Source of the DNA: Ferrithrix thermotolerans DSM 19514
Lineage (GTDB): Bacteria; Actinomycetota; Acidimicrobiia; Acidimicrobiales; Acidimicrobiaceae
Reading direction: 5' to 3'
Assembly: GCF_900128965.1 (NCBI RefSeq)
Contig: NZ_FQUL01000019.1
Location: 1-41,271 of the forward strand
Length of the DNA stretch: 41,271 bases
Shown here: positions 4,292 to 37,717 of the stretch, in pieces
Layout of the letters: every line of letters begins with the position of its first letter
Numbering within the stretch: position 1 is the stretch's first letter
The notes under the pieces: model-generated
What the model saw: only the letters and a program-made list of their open reading frames with translations
Databases searched by the model: none
Told to the model about the DNA's origin: nothing
Translations under genes and position numbers: made by a program

Positions 4292-5251
4292 CTAGTCCCA
4301 GGTCAAGATCACCTTCCCTAGCTTGCCACCGACCCTAAAGTGTTCGTAGGCGAGCGAAACGTCTTTGTAGGAAAAGGTGCGATCTACTACGGGTGCTATC
4401 GTGCCGGAGTCGAGAAGGTGGGAGAATCTCTTGGAGAAGGCTCGAGAGAGAGTTGCCTTCTCGGCAGTAGACCTGTTACGCAGGGTAGAGCCGCGAATCG
4501 TTCCTCTTGTTGCCATAAGCGCTCGCAGGTCGATGTCGGTTGTTGCTCCGGCGCCGACGCCGATTACTACTATGCGACCGAGCAGGTTTAGTTCTTTCAA
4601 GTTGTTCTGTAGGTTTTTTGCTCCCACGAGTTCAAGTATGACGTCGTAGGGACCAGAACCTTGGAACTCTTCTTCCGCCAAGACTTCACATCCTAGGGAC
4701 TCAACCTTAGGTCTGAGTTCTTTGTTGCGAACGGTGGCGGTGACGTGAGCCCCTGTTGACTTGGCAAGCTGTATTGCGGCCGTTCCAACGCCGCCAGCGC
4801 CTCCATGGATGCACACGCAATCACCCACAGAGAGATTTGCTTGGTCAAATAGGGCATCGAAGGCGGTAAGGAAGGTTTCGGGTATCCCTCCAGCTACTTC
4901 TATGGGTACGTTTTTGGGGACTTCAATTACGTTTGAGAGGTCGGTGCATAGATATTGGCACTGCCCACCACTGCCCACGATGCCCATTACTTTGCGTCCA
5001 AGAACCCCTTGGTCGACTCGTTCTCCGACCCCTACTATCTCGCCAGCAAACTCTAGACCGACGATGTCTCGAGGCCACCCCAATGGGGACGGGTATAGTC
5101 CCCGAATCTGAAGCAGGTCTGCTCCGTTAATTCCTGATGAAAGCACCTTTACAAGCACCTCGTTGCCTACTGGAGTCGGCTTTGGAACCTCCCTAAGCTC
5201 GACCGTTCCATCCCCGATAGACGTAACCGCTAGCATCTCAGCACCTGACAC
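4292..5251 (-). CDS. Quinone oxidoreductase-like medium-chain dehydrogenase (MDR)
   Basis: This 319-residue MDR oxidoreductase of the zeta-crystallin/QOR type is predicted to be NADPH-dependent and zinc-free. The N-terminal GroES-like domain has G(I)NGADLLQIRGLYP and the DIVGLEFAGEIVGVG block. The Rossmann domain has the AGGVGTAAIQLAKSTGA motif at about 150-166. The structural-zinc cysteine cluster of alcohol dehydrogenases is absent. The start is a GTG with a strong GGAGG site about 7 bases upstream; an in-frame ATG follows five codons later. It converges with the SDR gene, and no obvious pathway partner adjoins. The substrate is unknown; a quinone or enone is typical for the family. Confidence 0.88.
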   Translation of the reverse strand: MSGAEMLAVTSIGDGTVELREVPKPTPVGNEVLVKVLSSGINGADLLQIRGLYPSPLGWPRDIVGLEFAGEIVGVGERVDQGVLGRKVMGIVGSGGQCQYLCTDLSNVIEVPKNVPIEVAGGIPETFLTAFDALFDQANLSVGDCVCIHGGAGGVGTAAIQLAKSTGAHVTATVRNKELRPKVESLGCEVLAEEEFQGSGPYDVILELVGAKNLQNNLKELNLLGRIVVIGVGAGATTDIDLRALMATRGTIRGSTLRNRSTAEKATLSRAFSKRFSHLLDSGTIAPVVDRTFSYKDVSLAYEHFRVGGKLGKVILTWD

Positions 5252-5835: not shown

Positions 5836-7260
5836 ATGACTAAATCTTTCCCTCTTAGAAAAAGTTCTTGGAAAAAGGCTGTGGCCATAGGCTCATCAGC
5901 CCTTACCGCCGCAGGGGTGCTTGGTCTCCAGGTCTCCTCTCCTCTATCTGGCGCAAAGCTATCATCGGCCTCCGTTCAAGTGGCCCCCTATGTGGACATG
6001 ACGCTTTGGCCGTTGCGAAATCTATCTCAGATCGCTACCGACTCGCAACTGCGAAGCCTAACCTTAGCATTTATCGTCTCAAACAAGGGAACTTGTTCTC
6101 CGTCTTGGGGTAATTACTACCCTGTGGGTCAAAATAATGGCTCATTCCTGAGCAACATCAGCGGTTTCCAATCTATGGGTGGAAATCCGATCATCTCCTT
6201 TGGAGGGGAAGCTAATCAAGAGATGGCTCTCGTCTGCCCCTCGGCCCAAGCGCTAGAGCAGCAGTACCAATACGTCGTCGATCACTACCACGTCTACAGT
6301 TTGGACTTTGACATCGAAGGTACTGCCCTGAATGATCAAGCCTCCATACAGATGAGAAATGAAGCGCTGGCGATGCTGCAAAGAGATGAAGCGGCCATGG
6401 GTCACAACATAACTATCTCATATACGTTGCCAGTAATGCCGTGGGGACTTCTTTCGAACTCCTTGTATCTCCTAAATAACGCCGCAGCATCGGGCGTGAA
6501 CGTCTCGGTTGTCAACGTTATGGCGATGGACTACGGTCTTCCTAATCCTCAAAATCAGATGGGCAACTGGGCTGTTCAGGCTGCACAGGCTACCGAGGCG
6601 CAGCTAGCGAAGATATGGCCTCAAAAGAGCTCTTCGGAGCTTTGGTCTATGGTGGGTCTAACTCCGATGATCGGCCAGAACGATCTTTCGGGGGAGATCT
6701 TCACCCCGCAAGACGCGTCTCAGGTGTATAACTTTGCTGTCTCTCAAGGTCTTGGCAGGCTTTCCTATTGGTCGGCTGAGAGAGACTTCGAGTGTAGTGG
6801 TGGTGCCGACGTCAACTCAAATACTTGTTCTGGAGTTGTGCAGTCCCCTTACGAGTTTGCGTCGCTGTTTATGGGCGCAACGACCACAACGCAGCCTCCA
6901 TCCACGACCACAACGCAGCCGCCATCCACGACCACAACGGTTGCGCAGGAATCGAACGCAACTTTGTCGGTGACGGTATCTAGGAATAGCACCTGGTGGG
7001 GTGGGTACAGTGACTACGTCACTCTTACAAATAACTCGTCCTCTAAGGTTCAAGGATGGAAGGTATCGTTCTCCTTAGACGGAGCCAATGTGGCGGATCT
7101 CTGGGATGGGGTGGTTTCTGAGCCAAACCAAGGTAGCTATCAAGTTACCCCGGCCTCGTGGAACCAGGTGATTGAGCCAGGAGGCTCGGTGAAGTTTGGA
7201 TTTGTCGTAAAGTCGGACAGCAAGGTAGCGCCAAATATTGGACCGGTTGTGTTGAACTAA
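5836..7260 (+). CDS. Secreted GH18 chitinase-like protein with CBM2 domain
   Basis: This 474-residue protein is predicted to be exported and to cleave chitin or related beta-1,4-GlcNAc polymers. The N-terminus is basic, followed by a hydrophobic stretch (about 14-33) and small residues, a signal peptide. The catalytic domain (about 50-345) carries the GH18 active-site line in the form LDFDIE (D157, D159, E161; E161 is the proton donor), SFGGEAN (121-127) as the second conserved strand, and MAMDYG (229-234) for the substrate-binding Asp/Tyr. A Thr/Pro linker (about 348-370, two copies of QPPSTTTT) leads to a family-2 carbohydrate-binding module (about 376-474) with paired Trp (387-388), GW (407-408) and the [16 protein letters not shown] signature. 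The ATG has only a weak ribosome site. It sits 164 bases before fumC, probably as a separate unit. Confidence 0.88.
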
Positions 7261-16550: not shown

Positions 16551-17642
16551 GTGAATCCTTTAGAACAATTAGATTGTTGGCTTGCTGAACTTTTGGAAAG
16601 GCATGGATCGGACCTCCACCTAAAGGCTCAAGCTATCCCCAGGATAAGGGTTAATGGAGATCTTTCGGTGTTGGGAACCCAATCGGTATCACCAGAGGAG
16701 ACGATGTCCATAGCCAGATACTCCATGGGTGAGGAGCTATGGGCAGGTTTTGTTCGTAGACACGAAGCGGACTATGCCTACAGAAGGTCAGGGTTGGGTC
16801 GCTTCCGCGTCAACGCCTTTTTACAGAGGGGATCTGTCTCGATGGTCTTTCGGGCAGTAAGTACCAACCCACCCACGATCGAAGAGCTCGGTCTTCCAGA
16901 GTCAATAAGAACTCTAGCTAATGAACATAGAGGGTTGATATTGGTCACAGGTCCCACCGGTTCGGGCAAGTCCTCCACTTTAGCTGCGATGGTGAACCAT
17001 ATAAATGCAACCAGGAGTGCTCACATCGTAACCATCGAAGATCCTCTAGAGACCTTGCACCAGGACAAAATGTCTATTGTAAATCAACGTGAGATCGGCT
17101 TTGATACCCACGACTATTCAACAGCGATGCGTGCTGCGATGCGACAGGACCCGGACGTGATCTTAGTGGGTGAGATGAGAGATCTGGAGACCGTTACTGC
17201 AGCGATTCAGGCTGCCGAGACCGGGCATTTGGTGCTCTCTACGCTCCACACCACCGGTGCGGCAGAGACGATCCTAAGAGTGGTTGACTTCTTTCCGCCT
17301 CATCTGCAACAGCAAATCCGAGTCTCTCTCGCAGGTATCTTGAAGGGTGTAGTATGTCAACGTCTCGTTCGAACTAAAGACGGTCTGTCTCGGGTCCCAG
17401 CCCTCGAGGTTATGGTAGCGAACGGTCGCACAATGCAGTGCGTAGTTGATCCTCTAAAGACCTACGATCTTCGGGAGATTATCAAGGAGGGTGCTTTCTA
17501 CGGCATGATGTCCTTTGATCAGTCGCTGAAAGCTCTGTATCTGGGTGGTGTCATATCGCTAGAAGATGCGATGGAGAACGCAACAAACCCTCACGACCTG
17601 AAACTCGCTATCGGGGAGACTGAAGAAATGGCACCTCTGTGA
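16551..17642 (+). CDS. pilT: Type IV pilus retraction ATPase PilT
   Basis: This 363-residue secretion-superfamily ATPase is of PilT type. The N-terminal PAS-like domain contains SDLHLKAQAIPRIRVNGDL. Walker A is GPTGSGKSS (about 134-142), the Asp box lies around TIEDPLE (161-167), Walker B is VILVGEMRD (E208) and the His box is AETGHLVLSTLHT (222-234). A VCQRLVRTKDG segment and GMMSFDQSL near the C-terminus are usual for PilT. It would form a cytoplasmic hexamer that drives pilus retraction. The GTG start has only a weak ribosome site. No other pilus gene is in the window, so the pilus it serves must be encoded elsewhere. The MBL-fold gene follows immediately. Confidence 0.93.
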   Translation: MNPLEQLDCWLAELLERHGSDLHLKAQAIPRIRVNGDLSVLGTQSVSPEETMSIARYSMGEELWAGFVRRHEADYAYRRSGLGRFRVNAFLQRGSVSMVFRAVSTNPPTIEELGLPESIRTLANEHRGLILVTGPTGSGKSSTLAAMVNHINATRSAHIVTIEDPLETLHQDKMSIVNQREIGFDTHDYSTAMRAAMRQDPDVILVGEMRDLETVTAAIQAAETGHLVLSTLHTTGAAETILRVVDFFPPHLQQQIRVSLAGILKGVVCQRLVRTKDGLSRVPALEVMVANGRTMQCVVDPLKTYDLREIIKEGAFYGMMSFDQSLKALYLGGVISLEDAMENATNPHDLKLAIGETEEMAPL

Positions 17643-17698
17643 CTGCAGTCACCCAATCTAGATATCTAGTTATAGGTCTTGGCTATCTTCTAGGTGAG

Positions 17699-32869: not shown

Positions 32870-34111
32870 TTGCGATTATTTAGAGAAGATCTATCTTGGT
32901 CGCTCCCTGAGGAGCTGAACAAGGGTGCAATCTTGGAGAGCATCGAGAGAGTGCTCGGGGATATGGAAGCACCTAATACTTCCCTAGAAGACTGGCGCTA
33001 TGGGCGAGTTGATGAGCTTGATTTATCGAAATATAAGGTGGTAAATCCACATATTCGAAGCTCAAACGGCTACGTATCTGAGTGGATCTCAAGGTGGCAC
33101 GAGCTTGGATCTGACGCGTTCGGCGTAGAGATCGTTGTCGAGGACTTTGAATCCGTTTGCCAGGGCGTAGCGAGTGATACAGTACTTACAGCCAACGAGA
33201 ATGATGCTTCATCTGCTGAAGCAGTCTTAGATCAGCAGGAGCCGTTTCACTACCTGAGTAAGCTGTTGTCGACTAAGAAGACCTCTATCGTAGTTGGCGA
33301 TTCGAGTGAGAATTCTTCTGTGTTCTTGGGGCTCTTAGCTCCAGATGTTGACGGAGCGGTCTTTGCGCGAGACCTGCACATAAAGGTTCCCAACTATACC
33401 AAAGGTGTATTGGCGCTCGTTAGGGAAGGCGGTAGCAGAGACAGTCTCTTCCTCGACAGTATCTCAGTCGAGGTTGGAAGGGACGCGGAGTTGAGTGTTG
33501 TGGTTCTGCAAAATCTCAGTGATGGAGCCTGGGACCTAAGTTACTATGACTCTCAGATCGACCAGGGGGGAACACTAAAGTCTCTTACCGTCTCGCTGGG
33601 TGGCGACTACTCAAGACTTAGGAGCGTGTCGAGTCTGCACGGTAGGGGGGCACAGGCCTATCTAAAGGCAGGCTACGTTGCAGGAGGTACGCAGACTATG
33701 GAGTTCCGAACCTTCCAGAGACACCTAGCTCCGGCAACTCATTCCGACCTCTTGTACAAAGGAGCGGTTGCGGGTAGCTCACACTCCATCTATTCAGGGC
33801 TAATTGCGATAGAAAAAGGCGCCAGAGGATCTAATGCATTTCAGACCAATCGTAACATCGTCCTCAGTGAGAGCGCTCGCGCTGACTCTGTGCCAAATCT
33901 CGATATCCAAGAGAGTGACGTTCGGTGCTCTCACGCTTCTGCCGTGGGCCCCGTAGATGCGGACCAACGCTTCTACCTTGAGACAAAGGGTATAACGACC
34001 GAAGTGGCCGAAAAGATGATTGTGAGTGGGTTTTTTCGGGATCTCACGGAGTCTGTGCAAGGGTTAGATCTGTCAAGTTTGGTACTTGAGTCACTGGAGC
34101 GAAAGTGGTAG
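32870..34111 (+). CDS. sufD: Fe-S cluster assembly protein SufD
   Basis: This 413-residue SufB/D-family scaffold subunit pairs with SufB and SufC. The C-terminal half carries the family core: HSDLLYKGAVAGSSHSIYSGLIAIEKGARGSNAFQTNRNIVLSESARADSVPNLDIQESDVRCSHASAVGPVDADQRFYLETKGI, in which the DVRCSHA segment contains the conserved His of SufD. The N-terminal half is less conserved, as usual. The first usable codon is a TTG after an in-frame stop, with TTAGGGATGGA just upstream; no ATG or GTG allows the full domain. It is followed by the Rieske gene with a 7-base overlap. Confidence 0.92.
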   Translation: MRLFREDLSWSLPEELNKGAILESIERVLGDMEAPNTSLEDWRYGRVDELDLSKYKVVNPHIRSSNGYVSEWISRWHELGSDAFGVEIVVEDFESVCQGVASDTVLTANENDASSAEAVLDQQEPFHYLSKLLSTKKTSIVVGDSSENSSVFLGLLAPDVDGAVFARDLHIKVPNYTKGVLALVREGGSRDSLFLDSISVEVGRDAELSVVVLQNLSDGAWDLSYYDSQIDQGGTLKSLTVSLGGDYSRLRSVSSLHGRGAQAYLKAGYVAGGTQTMEFRTFQRHLAPATHSDLLYKGAVAGSSHSIYSGLIAIEKGARGSNAFQTNRNIVLSESARADSVPNLDIQESDVRCSHASAVGPVDADQRFYLETKGITTEVAEKMIVSGFFRDLTESVQGLDLSSLVLESLERKW

Positions 34112-34449
34112 AGAGAAAAGAAAGAAGTAAGGGCATGCACTTTGTCTGCAAACGAGAAGATCTGAAAAGCGGTGAGGCTCGTCAGTTCCAGGTAAAGGGA
34201 GTAAAAATTGCCATAGTCAGAATCGATGACGACTTCTATGCAATAGGTGATATCTGCTCTCACGCAAAGTACTACCTATCAGAGGGAGAGGTGTACAAAG
34301 AGGAGAGGGAGATCGAGTGCTGGAAGCACGGTAGCACCTTCTCTTTGATCGATGGAAAGCCCCAGTGCCTCCCAGCAACAAAACCAGTGCCTGTCTTTGG
34401 CGTTGCCATTGAAGGCGATGACGTCTTTGTAACGATGGAGAGATCATGA
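34105..34449 (+). CDS. Rieske-type [2Fe-2S] ferredoxin of the suf operon
   Basis: This is a 114-residue non-haem-iron oxygenase-ferredoxin-like Rieske protein. Cluster ligands are C51-S-H53 and C72-W-K-H75 in ICSHAKYYL and ECWKHGSTF. The fold continues with IDGKPQCLPATKPVPVFGV. A Rieske protein between sufD and sufC is standard in actinobacterial suf operons and is thought to supply electrons or handle clusters, though its exact role is unsettled. The GTG start lies within the sufD end behind GGAG; the ATG at 34135 is an alternative. The stop overlaps the sufC start (ATGA). Confidence 0.92.
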   Translation: MVERKERSKGMHFVCKREDLKSGEARQFQVKGVKIAIVRIDDDFYAIGDICSHAKYYLSEGEVYKEEREIECWKHGSTFSLIDGKPQCLPATKPVPVFGVAIEGDDVFVTMERS

Positions 34450-35225
34450 GCCAAGCGTCCATGGTTCCAGTGCTGGAGATTACCGATCTTCATGTTTCGG
34501 TAGGTGAAAAAGAGATTCTGCGGGGCGTATCTTTGACCGTTGGGGAAGGTGAGAAGGTAGCCATAATGGGACCAAACGGTTCTGGAAAGACGACCCTCTC
34601 TAATGTGTTGCTAGGTAAGCCGGGATATCGTATCGATCAGGGATCGATTAGGTTTATGGGTCAAGACCTATCCTCTCTTAGCACACATGAGCGTGCCCAG
34701 CTTGGACTTTCCCTTGTGTCGCAGTATCCTCAGGAGGTAGAAGGAGTCGATCTGAAGGATCTCGTAGGTGCCGCTCTATCAGCGCGAGGGCTAGACCTAG
34801 ATGGTGTCGAGAGTCGTGTCGCTAATGAAGCTAGGAAGATTGGCTTCTCCGAGTCTCTTCTGGGGCGATGGGTAAACGTTGATCTCTCCGGAGGCGAGAA
34901 GAAGAGGTTGGAGACACTGCTTCTGTCTCTTGTGCCCGCCAGGCTCGCTGTACTTGATGAGCTCGACTCAGGACTTGATATCGATGCTCTGCGGCAGGTA
35001 TCTCAGAGAATTGAAGATCTTAGCTCTTCGAACTCGATGGCCGTGGTTGCTATTACTCACTACTCCCGTCTTCTCAAGACCCTAACCGTCTCTAGGGTTC
35101 TAGTTCTGGCTCACGGCCTCTTTGTAACTGAAGGAGGTCCAGAGCTAGCTGAAGAGCTGGAGACTACTGGGTACAGGGACTACACAGGTAAAGGGACACC
35201 CACTGAAGACATTTTCCCCTTCTAA
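34446..35225 (+). CDS. sufC: Fe-S cluster assembly ATPase SufC
   Basis: This 259-residue ABC-type ATPase energises the SufB-SufD scaffold. Walker A is GPNGSGKTT, the Q-loop region has SLVSQYPQEVEGV, the signature is LSGGEKKRLE, Walker B is LAVLDELDSGLDIDAL with the extended D-loop, and the H-loop is AITHYSR. The length is normal for SufC. Translational coupling to the Rieske gene (ATGA) makes it the last gene of the sufD-Rieske-sufC unit. sufS, sufU and sufT, often next in actinobacteria, are absent here; transcription probably ends at the terminator about 110 bases downstream. Confidence 0.95.
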   Translation: MSQASMVPVLEITDLHVSVGEKEILRGVSLTVGEGEKVAIMGPNGSGKTTLSNVLLGKPGYRIDQGSIRFMGQDLSSLSTHERAQLGLSLVSQYPQEVEGVDLKDLVGAALSARGLDLDGVESRVANEARKIGFSESLLGRWVNVDLSGGEKKRLETLLLSLVPARLAVLDELDSGLDIDALRQVSQRIEDLSSSNSMAVVAITHYSRLLKTLTVSRVLVLAHGLFVTEGGPELAEELETTGYRDYTGKGTPTEDIFPF

Positions 35226-35248
35226 TTACCGAATTCATGGATTAAAGT

Positions 35249-35264
35249 TGTGACTTTGGTCACT
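35249..35264 (+). promoter_or_regulatory. CRP/FNR-type operator-like site
   Basis: TGTGA-CTTTGG-TCACT differs from the CRP consensus TGTGA-N6-TCACA at one base. It overlaps a possible promoter (TTGTGA at 35248-35253, TACAGT at 35272-35277, 18-base spacing), so binding there would most likely repress. It stands between sufC and the candidate small RNA. Confidence 0.5.
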
Positions 35265-35283
35265 TGTATGCTACAGTAGTAAC

Positions 35284-35371
35284 AGGCCTTGGCCCAAGGT
35301 TTCGGAGGGGAGGCTGCAGAGTCAGCCGGGTTTTTGGGGACTGAGTGAAATCAGTCCCCAATCATTTTTTT
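35284..35371 (+). ncRNA. Candidate small RNA downstream of sufC
   Basis: From a start inferred about 7 bases after TACAGT, about 88 bases run to a strong terminator and contain no reading frame. Possible stems are CCTTG/CAAGG (about 35287-35299) and GGCTG/CAGCC (35312-35327, loop CAGAGT), followed by the terminator hairpin. It may instead be only the 3' untranslated region of the suf transcript, but its own promoter-like hexamers and operator favour a separate RNA. No known family was recognised. Confidence 0.45.
35334..35371 (+). terminator. Rho-independent terminator
   Basis: TTGGGGACTGA (35334-35344) and TCAGTCCCCAA (35351-35361) form a perfect 11-base-pair stem with loop GTGAAA, followed within three bases by T7 (35365-35371). 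It is the clearest intrinsic terminator in the window and ends plus-strand transcription after sufC and the candidate small RNA. Confidence 0.9.
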
Positions 35372-35500
35372 CTCAGGTGCCGTCGTGGTCTAGAGTCGTC
35401 GGTGACTTCTAATGATTTGGGATTGGTATATCGGATCTTGGGACTGTGAGAACTGAAACTATGCGAGCGGATTATCTTGGCACATACAGGAACGTCAGGA

Positions 35501-36670
35501 TTACTCTAGGGAGTTGGTAATCCTTGATTTTATCTCTGGAAGATGTTCGCTCCCGTCAAAGAGAGCCGCTCCTGTGAGTCGCAAACCGTCGTGGAAGTAT
35601 ACAACGGTTTGTGCGTCCTTGGTAATCACCTCTTCTTCGGACCCTTCAGTTCGAACTCCGATGGTTTGGATGAGGTGGCCGTGCTGTTCAGTCCAGGCAA
35701 AAGGAAGCTCGTGGACTACCTGCTCTGCATTGGTGATGTACCGAGCAACGTTTAGAGCTTGGTTGACAGCAGACTCAAAGTGCTCAATGTGGAGGTTCTT
35801 CTTGTAATGTGGCGAGTACCAACTAGCCACGTCTCCCACTGCGAAATGGACACCTTCTTCGTCTATACGTCCGCAGCTGTCGGCTAAGAGAGCGCCCTCC
35901 CTGCCCAGCTGGAACCCGGAGTCTTGACCGAGCCAGTTGGTGGCAGGCCTTACACCGACTCCCACTACCAAAAGATCGAGCTCATAACTTTTCGACGAGC
36001 CATTAGCGATGAGTGTAGAACCCGCATCTGTTTCAACTACCCCTATAGGCTCTCCAAAACACGTCTTCACACCCATCTTTCGATGAAGGTCGGAGAGCTT
36101 TTTTGCTAGGTGGGTTCCAAGCGCCTGTGCCATTGGAGTAGGAGATGCGTCAAATAGGACTACATCACTTACTTGACCTACGAGGGATGAGGCGATCTCA
36201 GACCCGATAAAACCTGCGCCTAGTATCCCTATGCGCATAGAAGAAGAGATGCTCGCCCGTAGCTTTACAGCGTCATCCAGTGTGCGAAAGTACATGACTC
36301 GTGTTGACGGTGCAAGACCCGGAGGCGTTATAGGAGTAGCGCCTGTGGCTACTATGAGAGCGTCGTAACTGAGATCCTCATGGTCCGAGGTGAATACAAC
36401 CCGGTTGTTCTGATCGATAGATGTCGCTGTGACCCCTAGCCGAAGGGAGAAGGGCTCCTCTACGGTTCCCCTCAGATAAACTCGCTCTTTGCTGGTCGTG
36501 CCTTTCAAGATCTGTTTCGATAAAGGAGGTCTTTGATAGGGGTGATGGTGCTCCTCTCCAATTAGGACTATCTCCCCTTTGAACCCAAGACGGCGAAGCT
36601 CGCGAGCGCTACGAAATCCCGCAAGTGAAGCACCAACTATAACGCAACGCTCTATCGAACTTTGGGTCAT
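35501..36670 (-). CDS. NAD(P)/FAD-dependent ferredoxin reductase
   Basis: This 389-residue pyridine-nucleotide-disulfide-type oxidoreductase is of the putidaredoxin/rubredoxin reductase class. The FAD-binding opening is CVIVGASLAGFRSARELRRLG, followed by PYQRPPLSKQIL, the VATGATP strand, the NAD-binding GAGFIGSEIASSL and a late GVHFAVGDVASW FAD-ribityl motif. It passes electrons from NAD(P)H to a small Fe-S protein. The [3Fe-4S] ferredoxin gene lies 13 bases upstream on the same strand, so the two form an electron-transfer pair of the kind serving cytochromes P450 or Rieske oxygenases. No such oxygenase is in the window. Confidence 0.92.
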   Translation of the reverse strand: MTQSSIERCVIVGASLAGFRSARELRRLGFKGEIVLIGEEHHHPYQRPPLSKQILKGTTSKERVYLRGTVEEPFSLRLGVTATSIDQNNRVVFTSDHEDLSYDALIVATGATPITPPGLAPSTRVMYFRTLDDAVKLRASISSSMRIGILGAGFIGSEIASSLVGQVSDVVLFDASPTPMAQALGTHLAKKLSDLHRKMGVKTCFGEPIGVVETDAGSTLIANGSSKSYELDLLVVGVGVRPATNWLGQDSGFQLGREGALLADSCGRIDEEGVHFAVGDVASWYSPHYKKNLHIEHFESAVNQALNVARYITNAEQVVHELPFAWTEQHGHLIQTIGVRTEGSEEEVITKDAQTVVYFHDGLRLTGAALFDGSEHLPEIKSRITNSLE

Positions 36671-36683
36671 TGTTCCTCGGGTT

Positions 36684-36872
36684 TTAGACGATCTTGATGG
36701 CTTGGGTGGGGCAACTAGCGACCGCTTTTTCCACGATGGATCTCATGGAGTTGTCGGGAGATTCGTTCAAGATATACAGAAACCCATCTTCGCGCACCTC
36801 AAATATTGAAGGTGCTATCTGCATGCAAACTGCGTTCGATTGACACTTGTCAAAGTCAACTTCGATTTTCAT
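36684..36872 (-). CDS. [3Fe-4S] ferredoxin
   Basis: This 62-residue ferredoxin is of the actinobacterial P450-partner type. Ligands are C10, C16 and C54 in DKCQSNAVCMQ and ASCPTQAI. The position that would hold the fourth cluster ligand is N13 (C-x-x-N-x-x-C), a residue known to vary (His, Asn and others) among mycobacterial 3Fe-4S ferredoxins and to tune redox potential. IAPSIFEV and CPTQAIKI are family marks. The start ATG follows an AGGGGAGTT-type site on the minus strand. It is co-transcribed with the reductase downstream. Confidence 0.92.
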   Translation of the reverse strand: MKIEVDFDKCQSNAVCMQIAPSIFEVREDGFLYILNESPDNSMRSIVEKAVASCPTQAIKIV

Positions 36873-36926
36873 AAAACTCCCCTTTTTGAACTTAGCCTAT
36901 AGCTTTATCGTAGTTCATACGATGCT

Positions 36927-36942
36927 CATAGTTTCAACTATG
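36927..36942. promoter_or_regulatory. Palindrome CATAGTT-TC-AACTATG
   Basis: Perfect seven-base arms lie in the 131-base gap between the divergent ferredoxin and response-regulator genes. An overlapping GTTTC-N6-GAAAC pair (36931-36946) adds to the symmetry. It is a probable binding site for a dimeric repressor such as a TetR or MarR protein; the target gene is undecided. Confidence 0.5.
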
Positions 36943-37003
36943 AAACATCTCAGGAAAATCGGTTATCGTTGCACTATAGCCAGATAGTAAGGAGTTTCTT
37001 TAC

Positions 37004-37717
37004 GTGAGGGTACTATTAGTTGACGACGAAGTTAGTTTGGGAGAGGCGCTTAAGCGTGGTCTAAGCGCCGAAGGATTTGCTGTAGATCTGGCGAAAGACG
37101 GTCTCGAAGGTCTTCGGATGGCTAAAGAGACTGCGTATGACATTATTGTACTTGACATAATGTTGCCGGGAATGAACGGCTTTAAGTTGACTGATACCTT
37201 GAGGAAAGAAGAGATCTGGACTCCTATCCTCATGCTCACTGCGAAGGACGGGGAGCTCGACGAAGCAGAAGCTCTTGATACCGGAGCAGACGACTTCTTG
37301 AAAAAGCCCTTCTCTTTTACGGTTTTGTTGGCGCGCATGAGGGCTTTATTGCGAAGGGGGGTTGAGAGTCGTCCTCCCGTTCTCTCAGCTGGCGAGCTAA
37401 GTCTCGATCCCGCCAGCCACATCGTAAAGCGAGGTGATGTTGAGATCGACCTAACGTCACGCGAGTTTTCTTTCCTCGAGTTGCTACTTAGGTCTAAGGG
37501 TCGCGTTTTGACCAAGCGAGAGATAATAGAGCACGTGTGGGATTACGACTTTGAAGGCGACTCGAACATAGTTGAGGTCTACATAGGTTACCTTCGGCGT
37601 AAGATCGATCTGCCTTTTGGCACCAAGTCGATTAAGACCGTGAGAGGAGTTGGTTATCTCCTCGATGAGTCAGGTGGTGCCAACAGTGAGGATCCGGTCG
37701 TATCCAAGGTAAGCTAA
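37004..37717 (+). CDS. OmpR/PhoB-family response regulator
   Basis: This 237-residue protein has a receiver with acidic pair DDE (7-9), phospho-acceptor D51 in VLDIMLPGMNGF and K103-region KKPFSFTVL. The winged-helix domain (about 125-222) has REFSFLELLLRSKGRVLTKREIIEHVWDYDFEGDSNIVEVYIGYLRRKID and TVRGVGYLL. The GTG start has AAGGAG about 11 bases upstream. The kinase gene follows after 69 bases, making a complete two-component system distinct from the one at 26.6-28.9 kb. A palindrome just upstream may be its own operator. Confidence 0.94.
   Translation: MRVLLVDDEVSLGEALKRGLSAEGFAVDLAKDGLEGLRMAKETAYDIIVLDIMLPGMNGFKLTDTLRKEEIWTPILMLTAKDGELDEAEALDTGADDFLKKPFSFTVLLARMRALLRRGVESRPPVLSAGELSLDPASHIVKRGDVEIDLTSREFSFLELLLRSKGRVLTKREIIEHVWDYDFEGDSNIVEVYIGYLRRKIDLPFGTKSIKTVRGVGYLLDESGGANSEDPVVSKVS

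Follow-up and report, generated by a model that had tools for sequence, protein, structure and literature searches.

A predicted G-rich small RNA gene with a CRP-type operator in Ferrithrix thermotolerans and its family relatives

Here we present a predicted small RNA gene of Ferrithrix thermotolerans DSM 19514, located at 35249-35371 of the window, by which we mean the whole stretch of 41,271 nucleotides that was analysed (contig NZ_FQUL01000019.1). Comparison with a set of 42 genomes of the same family, whose genera are labelled g1-g8 and whose genomes are labelled G000 onward, makes it highly probable that the locus is a real independent gene. The best explanation of the sequence data, which we favour with modest confidence, is that this small RNA gene would be repressed by a CRP-type regulator and that its product would act by pairing of its G-runs with a C-rich RNA. 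A conserved CRP-linked G-rich RNA, together with a candidate C-rich partner, offers a concrete circuit, open to testing, in an actinobacterial lineage that has been little studied and, if true, would mean that C-rich small RNAs are under sponge control outside the Firmicutes as well. In the open-access literature, as judged by titles and listed text, small RNAs were not found described for the Acidimicrobiia; the lineage is not known to have Hfq.

Results

Elements of the locus

A first-pass annotation of the window had described an operator, promoter-like hexamers 18 bases apart, two small stems and an 11-bp terminator with a T7 tract at 35249-35371, and all of these elements are present. They are listed here with the flanking genes:

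35248..35253, + strand: -35-like hexamer TTGTGA, shared with the operator, inferred from its spacing of 18 to TACAGT
35249..35264, + strand: CRP-type operator TGTGACTTTGGTCACT, a GTGAC-N4-GTCAC palindrome that overlaps the -35 box; the same pattern is seen in 22 family loci
35272..35277, + strand: -10-like hexamer TACAGT, 18 bases from TTGTGA
35284..35371, + strand: predicted small RNA of ~88 nt (MFE z-score of -2.3 for 35283-35371)
within 35284-35302, + strand: stem 1, from folding
35303..35310, + strand: G-rich core CGGAGGGG, with a mean predicted unpaired probability of 0.7 for GGGG
35312-35316/35323-35327, + strand: hairpin (stem 2) GGCTG/CAGCC, 3' of the core
35334..35371, + strand: intrinsic terminator, stem 35334-35344/35351-35361, with 11 perfect pairs and a loop of 6
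34446..35225, + strand: sufC, of the upstream SufD-Rieske-SufC cluster, over the TIGR01978 cut-off
35501..36670, - strand: convergent ferredoxin-NAD reductase-like gene, below the cut-offs of the named families

The 5' end of the RNA, placed from the -10 hexamer, is predicted to lie near 35284. The stretch between stem 1 and stem 2 includes TTTCGGAGGGGA, and the terminator stem is followed by TCA and then by T7 at 35365-35371. The reported absence of a reading frame was also borne out, in that the longest start-to-stop run comprises 19 codons, from a TTG (35278 to 35400), and none is convincing. No Rfam family exceeded its gathering score in the window or in the loci of six relatives.

Upstream of the RNA locus are genes for a SufD-like protein, which scores under the SufD cut-off, for a Rieske protein and for SufC. 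No sufB or sufS was seen directly adjoining this cluster in the ORF list, and two sufC-like copies were noted, one at G000:C54:56258-56983 and one in the window cluster (32870-35225). Among the matches listed, relatives of SufC come from a Ferrimicrobium and from Acidimicrobiaceae MAGs, at 48-54% identity. Relatives at 52% identity (L073, L075) were also seen in Bifidobacterium breve MAG records, which are possibly mislabelled.

Chance expectation for the elements

Generic scans of 33000-37500 returned 3 terminators versus 3.6 expected and 2 sigma-70 promoters versus 3.3 expected, the RNA promoter not being among the latter; because these counts are not above chance, such scans alone prove nothing. 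Using more specific patterns, we found TGTGACNNNNGTCAC in 2 copies in the window versus 0.02 expected in shuffles, and an operator followed by a -10 hexamer at 7-9 bases once versus 0.01 expected. In the whole 2.49-Mb assembly, the RNA locus is the single occurrence of this operator and -10 combination. Also, when both strands of the window were scanned for perfect stems of 9 bp or longer (loop 3-8) with a T-tract (6 or more T in 8), the terminator of the RNA was the sole match. The second perfect TGTGACNNNNGTCAC palindrome, at 17638-17652, lies across a start codon, inside coding sequence, and is probably a chance copy. What makes the locus more than chance is its conservation among relatives.

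Distribution across the family

The unit of operator, -10 hexamer and RNA was found in 22 of the 42 family genomes, directly after sufC in 19 and behind or beside a transporter gene in three. The family's 30 best SufC loci served as the starting sample; of these, 17 had the layout right after sufC, 12 did not (seven from g4, one from g7, one from g2 and three from g3) and one was cut by a contig end; the later addition of G003 and G012 brought the sufC-adjacent copies to 19. Two of the three g3 loci scored as lacking an adjoining unit, those of G005 and G014, have it ~1.8 kb past sufC, on the far side of a transporter gene (MFS by eye), and in G007 the unit lies beside the same transporter gene (MFS by eye) on a cut contig. 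Because these three copies sit behind or beside a transporter gene and not directly after sufC, we regard the RNA unit as an independent gene.

A pattern search for the operator with its -10 hexamer over the 42 genomes, which would miss copies with a departing operator, gave 32 rows, corresponding to 30 distinct sites, versus 5 rows for the reversed control. In each of the 22 matching genomes, one of these sites belongs to the RNA unit. With a stricter pattern, a sample of 298 genomes of the order yielded matches in 7 genomes versus 3 for the control; the three that fall in the family (G000, G003, G025) are all the RNA unit, and the remaining four are, by eye, promoters of protein genes. The RNA model R1, run over the 298 order genomes, matched only 3 family genomes, a count that is an underestimate since scoring was limited to 16 candidates per genome. 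In sequence, the locus thus has its own promoter and terminator and is conserved apart from its neighbour gene, and the comparison strongly supports the original suggestion of an independent small RNA gene.

Conservation and structure of the RNA

Comparison of two genomes of the same genus, G000 and G023, revealed agreement at 25 of 31 positions from the operator to the -10 hexamer and at 27 of 31 in the core and hairpin, versus 8 of 21 and 44 of 109 positions in the flanks; that is, 81-87% identity for promoter and core and 38-40% for the flanks. The 5' stem is identical at 5 of 20 positions and the terminator at 18 of 37, and the terminator stem folds in both. Genera g1, g6 and g8 share an invariant core, CGGAGGGG, in 12 of 12 copies aligned. 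In the hairpin after the core, all 48 cells of the alignment are occupied by standard pairs, a score reached in 1 of 500 shuffles. Compensatory changes occur in two of the four aligned hairpin pairs; two such pairs are reached by 55 of 500 shuffles and both stem from a single contrast, g1 versus g6/g8, so that this support for the hairpin is modest.

The core varies between genera, from CGGAGGGG to runs of G4-G7, the copies of g5 and g3 having, in its place, multiple G-runs of 4-7 bases, some of them in loops. Altogether, the 22 RNAs contain 54 runs of G4 or more versus 1 of C4, where mononucleotide shuffling gives an expectation of 27.4 G runs and at most 39 in 1000 shuffles. Predictions of how accessible the core G-run is are mixed, with unpaired probabilities of 0.7 for the window copy, 0.55 for G023, 0.25 for G030 and 0.26-0.86 for g8. 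The folding z-scores of the copies range from -1.6 to -6.2.

A single CRP-type protein as candidate regulator

The window genome has one protein with a PF00027 (cNMP-binding) domain at E 0.01 or better. Its gene (L069:1165-1839) is situated between disA, encoding a c-di-AMP synthase, and a putative CarD-like gene that had no family match (L069:72-2461). The protein scores below the CRP equivalog cut-off and has no cysteine; its nearest solved relatives are, we presume, the M. tuberculosis CRP entries. The window operator, which lies in the promoter, has 9 of the 10 consensus bases of a TGTGA-N6-TCACA-type CRP site.

Close orthologues of this protein (51% identity or more) are present in 28 of the 42 family genomes. 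The unit is carried by 21 of these and lacking in 7, all of which are <90% complete; of the 14 genomes without a close orthologue, 13 lack the unit and one, G034 (87% complete), has it. When the set is restricted to the 20 genomes with at least 90% completeness and at most 5% contamination, orthologue and unit agree in every case (11 with both, 9 with neither). This co-occurrence is clustered by genus, yet within g3 one genome, G004, lacks both. Genera g4 and g7 have a diverged homologue of 38-41% identity, and the g7 copy lies beside a disA-like gene (by eye). The sequence SRERVNK, which we take to be the CRP-type recognition helix, is found in all 23 of the 28 close orthologues that were read. 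The five g4/g7 homologues read have SRERTNK in this helix and GD in the pocket instead of GE, which we take to be the cNMP pocket residues.

From these patterns, the operator is most likely bound by the single CRP-type protein of the genome, and we consider CRP control of the RNA to be likely. Control by a CRP/FNR protein had been suggested before, with identification of such proteins as a check. One CRP-type protein was found in the window genome, and the CRP half of the suggestion is well supported by that protein being the only one with PF00027, by its nearest solved relatives and by the agreement in all 20 near-complete genomes, whereas the FNR half fell away. FNR was rejected on the grounds that the single family protein is without cysteine and that the operator half-site reads GTGA, not TTGAT. 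A crude cyclase motif had no match in the sampled 33% of the window genome, the motif being too rough to say much.

Position of the operator and further sites

With a start near 35284, the centre of the operator lies at about -27.5, so that it covers the -35 box, and in all 22 loci the constant operator covers this box. Repression by CRP of M. tuberculosis goes with start-proximal sites and activation with upstream ones (PMC4117774), and a similar rule of site position is stated in PMC4218801. Since the operator is near the start, repression is favoured under the M. tuberculosis rule, and by this analogy binding of CRP probably represses the RNA. All nine g8 copies have a second site 33 bp upstream, at about -60.5 as counted by hand.

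Eight further distinct operator and -10 sites lie outside the RNA unit. Four of them precede a coxS-like gene in G003, G008, G011 and G012:

L355, L337, L368 ~4713-4740 and L369 ~6600-6627: operator sites ahead of coxS-like genes in four g3 genomes

The coxS-like protein of G003, the only one scanned, has two 2Fe-2S domains, and the name CO dehydrogenase small subunit was given by eye. Two more sites lie ahead of a gene for an NrtR-type NUDIX regulator in G008 and G012 (L336, L359; the G008 protein was scanned), and G035 and G041 account for two to which no gene was assigned.

The location of the RNA next to suf genes had earlier been taken to point to control linked to Fe-S or redox state. 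This link was based on position only and is not supported: in G005 and G014 the RNA and sufC are set apart by a transporter gene, and the same promoter pattern elsewhere precedes coxS-like and NrtR-type genes. According to PMC13098282, mycobacterial CO dehydrogenase typically rises on carbon starvation, and two mycobacterial CRPs showed no binding to a hydrogenase promoter. By analogy, the CO dehydrogenase link would suggest a carbon or energy signal.

A candidate C-rich partner RNA in genus g3

In Bacillus subtilis, as described in PMC8216469, the C-rich RoxS is sequestered by RosA, a stand-alone RNA that has two G-rich regions and is under the control of CcpA. No match to the 6C RNA (RF01066) over the 47-bit cut-off was obtained in the 42 family genomes, under strict filters and with up to 86 candidates per genome scored; because RosA is G-rich and sequesters a C-rich RNA, sub-threshold matches were examined. 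There were ten weak matches, with G012 at 25.2 bits. Three of these (G012, G005 and G014:C54) proved to be copies of a C-rich RNA, in which CAACUUCCCCC, close to the predicted 5' end, is invariant and which has a hairpin resembling a terminator; the other seven (G033, G031, G001, G002, G016, G009 and G014:C84) were discarded as coding or unrelated by eye.

From the distance between the C-rich RNA and the cox promoter in G012, its location in G008, G011 and G003 was predicted beforehand. It was found in the stretches of 4-18 kb examined there, at most 0.1 kb off in G008 and G011 and 1.1 kb off in G003. The C-rich RNA is thus present in the six g3 genomes examined for it, in three by discovery and in three by prediction:

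L368:6971-7032, L369:8831-8891, L371:2357-2417 and L370:10653-10720: C-rich 6C-like RNA copies
L372:6058-6110 (+ strand) and L373:6773-6825 (- strand): C-rich 6C-like RNA copies

Its neighbours are eno-like and CO dehydrogenase-like genes, the names eno, ftsB and coxL having been given by eye. Of the ten consensus pairs in the alignment, three show compensatory changes, but several are broken in one or two of the rows, and at 0.06 the covariation term is not favourable. The promoter contains conserved AAGGA and CGAT-GTT blocks, whose spacing, counted by hand, we take to be that of an ECF-sigma-type promoter. About 60 bases upstream, an ATGAC-N4-GTCAC palindrome is present in G008, G011 and G012 and absent from the other three.

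Complementarity between the two RNAs was assessed in the order G012, G008, G011, G003, G005 and G014. The longest perfect duplexes are of 10, 10, 10, 10, 9 and 9 bp, which were matched by 1, 1, 2, 7, 14 and 21 of 200 shuffled C-rich RNAs, and the duplex energy was matched by 20, 3, 0, 1, 30 and 1 of 200. From these comparisons, the evidence for pairing is fair in G012, G008, G011 and G003 and weak in G005 and G014; pairing, moreover, comes easily to any two RNAs of which one is G-rich and the other C-rich. In the window genome, neither a C-rich partner nor eno was found in the 814,250 of 2,486,861 bases sampled (33%; 40 stretches and the window).

Discussion

Proposed mechanism

The promoter, operator, G-rich core, hairpin and terminator are kept together as one unit. 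In the mechanism that we propose, the single CRP-type regulator would bind the operator over the -35 box, with repression as the most likely outcome. Because the site covers the -35 box, so that binding most likely represses, the RNA would be made when the regulator is off. The controlling signal would probably be carbon or energy, not Fe-S. As a weaker step, the RNA may act in trans by base-pairing of its G-run with a C-rich RNA, and in genus g3 the C-rich small RNA would be the likely partner, sequestered as RosA sequesters RoxS. A sponge mechanism in general is a tentative proposal, which we hold to be somewhat less likely than not.

A fuller reading, in which a C-rich 6C-like RNA beside CO dehydrogenase genes and a G-rich sponge after the suf cluster would form an antagonistic pair, we hold to be doubtful as a complete two-RNA circuit. 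In that circuit, the C-rich RNA would have an ECF-sigma-like promoter (GGANN-N17/18-GTT), and one CRP-type regulator would serve both RNAs from different site positions, at -27.5 for the sponge and, in three of the six genomes, ~60 bases upstream for the C-rich RNA. The pair would then be a separately evolved actinobacterial counterpart of RosA-RoxS.

Comparison with known systems

We take ncRv13660c of M. tuberculosis to be B11/6C. CRP of that species binds upstream of ncRv13660c (PMC4117774). The g3 C-rich partner resembles the 6C/B11 RNA of Actinobacteria (RF01066) in its C5 loops and terminator hairpin (PMC10470900), and differs from it in that none of the 42 genomes has a match over the cut-off; the window RNA, being G-rich, is its mirror image.

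By the description of RosA in PMC8216469, the window RNA is like it in being stand-alone, G-rich without C-rich regions and, probably, under a global carbon regulator; a C-rich small RNA partner would be a further likeness, with a candidate here in g3. The two differ in phylum and in regulator (CcpA versus CRP-type), with no sequence relation shown, and sponge action of the window RNA is a proposal. RsaI of Staphylococcus aureus likewise binds C-rich small RNAs through G-rich regions and is under carbon control, but it additionally has a C-rich region and belongs to another phylum (PMC8216469). RoxS/RsaE of Firmicutes, of which RoxS is repressed by Rex according to PMC8216469, are similar in being small RNAs with a palindromic operator that links them to central metabolism; they are C-rich, not G-rich, and Rex is absent from the family genomes here.

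Alternative explanations

The position of the unit directly after sufC in 19 genomes, and generic promoter and terminator scans that do not rise above chance, could also fit a terminator and 3' UTR of the suf operon with a chance palindrome. We think this very improbable, since few parts are as well conserved as the promoter and operator, a transporter gene stands between sufC and the unit in G005 and G014, and the operator with its -10 hexamer occurs only once in the genome. With an independent gene granted, its operator might belong to another regulator, such as Rex or some other factor. Some g8 operators read TTGTGAA-N4-TTCACAA, equal to the Rex consensus, and G034 carries the unit but no close CRP orthologue; CRP binding is itself a prediction. 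Rex was rejected, as its DNA-binding domain was found in 0 of the 42 family genomes while controls were positive in 7 of 14; this, the single CRP-type protein of the genome and the agreement in all 20 near-complete genomes make another regulator unlikely. Given CRP as the regulator, the g8 site at about -60.5, near the classical activating position in other CRPs, would suit activation of the RNA in place of repression. The constant site over the -35 box in all 22 loci argues against this, as does the M. tuberculosis rule that ties start-proximal sites to repression (PMC4117774), and we regard activation as rather doubtful.

As to what the RNA would act upon, C-rich stretches of mRNAs, regulated directly, might be the targets in place of a C-rich small RNA. 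The G-rich core would suit them, as would the absence of the C-rich RNA from the sampled third of the own genome. Full-length perfect complements of the seed are, however, not enriched in the nine g8 genomes (95 rows, 9 of them own sites, versus 87 control rows), comparison of the 86 other sites gave no convincing conserved 5'-region site, and the window has 9 seed-complement sites versus 10.6 expected; we lean away from direct action on mRNAs. The RNA could also be a protein decoy of the CsrB/RsmZ kind, working through GGA motifs and not through base-pairing. Such motifs are frequent in the g3 copies (6-7 each), but two of the three g5 copies have one GGA, at a stem foot, and keep their G6-G7 loops, which renders a decoy quite improbable beside a base-pairing RNA.

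A variant, CCCCCTCCGCCA, was seen 8 times, including at the 3' end of a tRNA-Ser-like gene (by eye) in G033 and G037. At L251 and L287, from the same two genomes, the 3' end of that tRNA-Ser-like gene (by eye) shows complementarity to the core of g8, GCGGAGGGGG. The tRNA-Ser 3' end was set aside as a target, and its CCCCCTCCGCCA matches were treated as chance.
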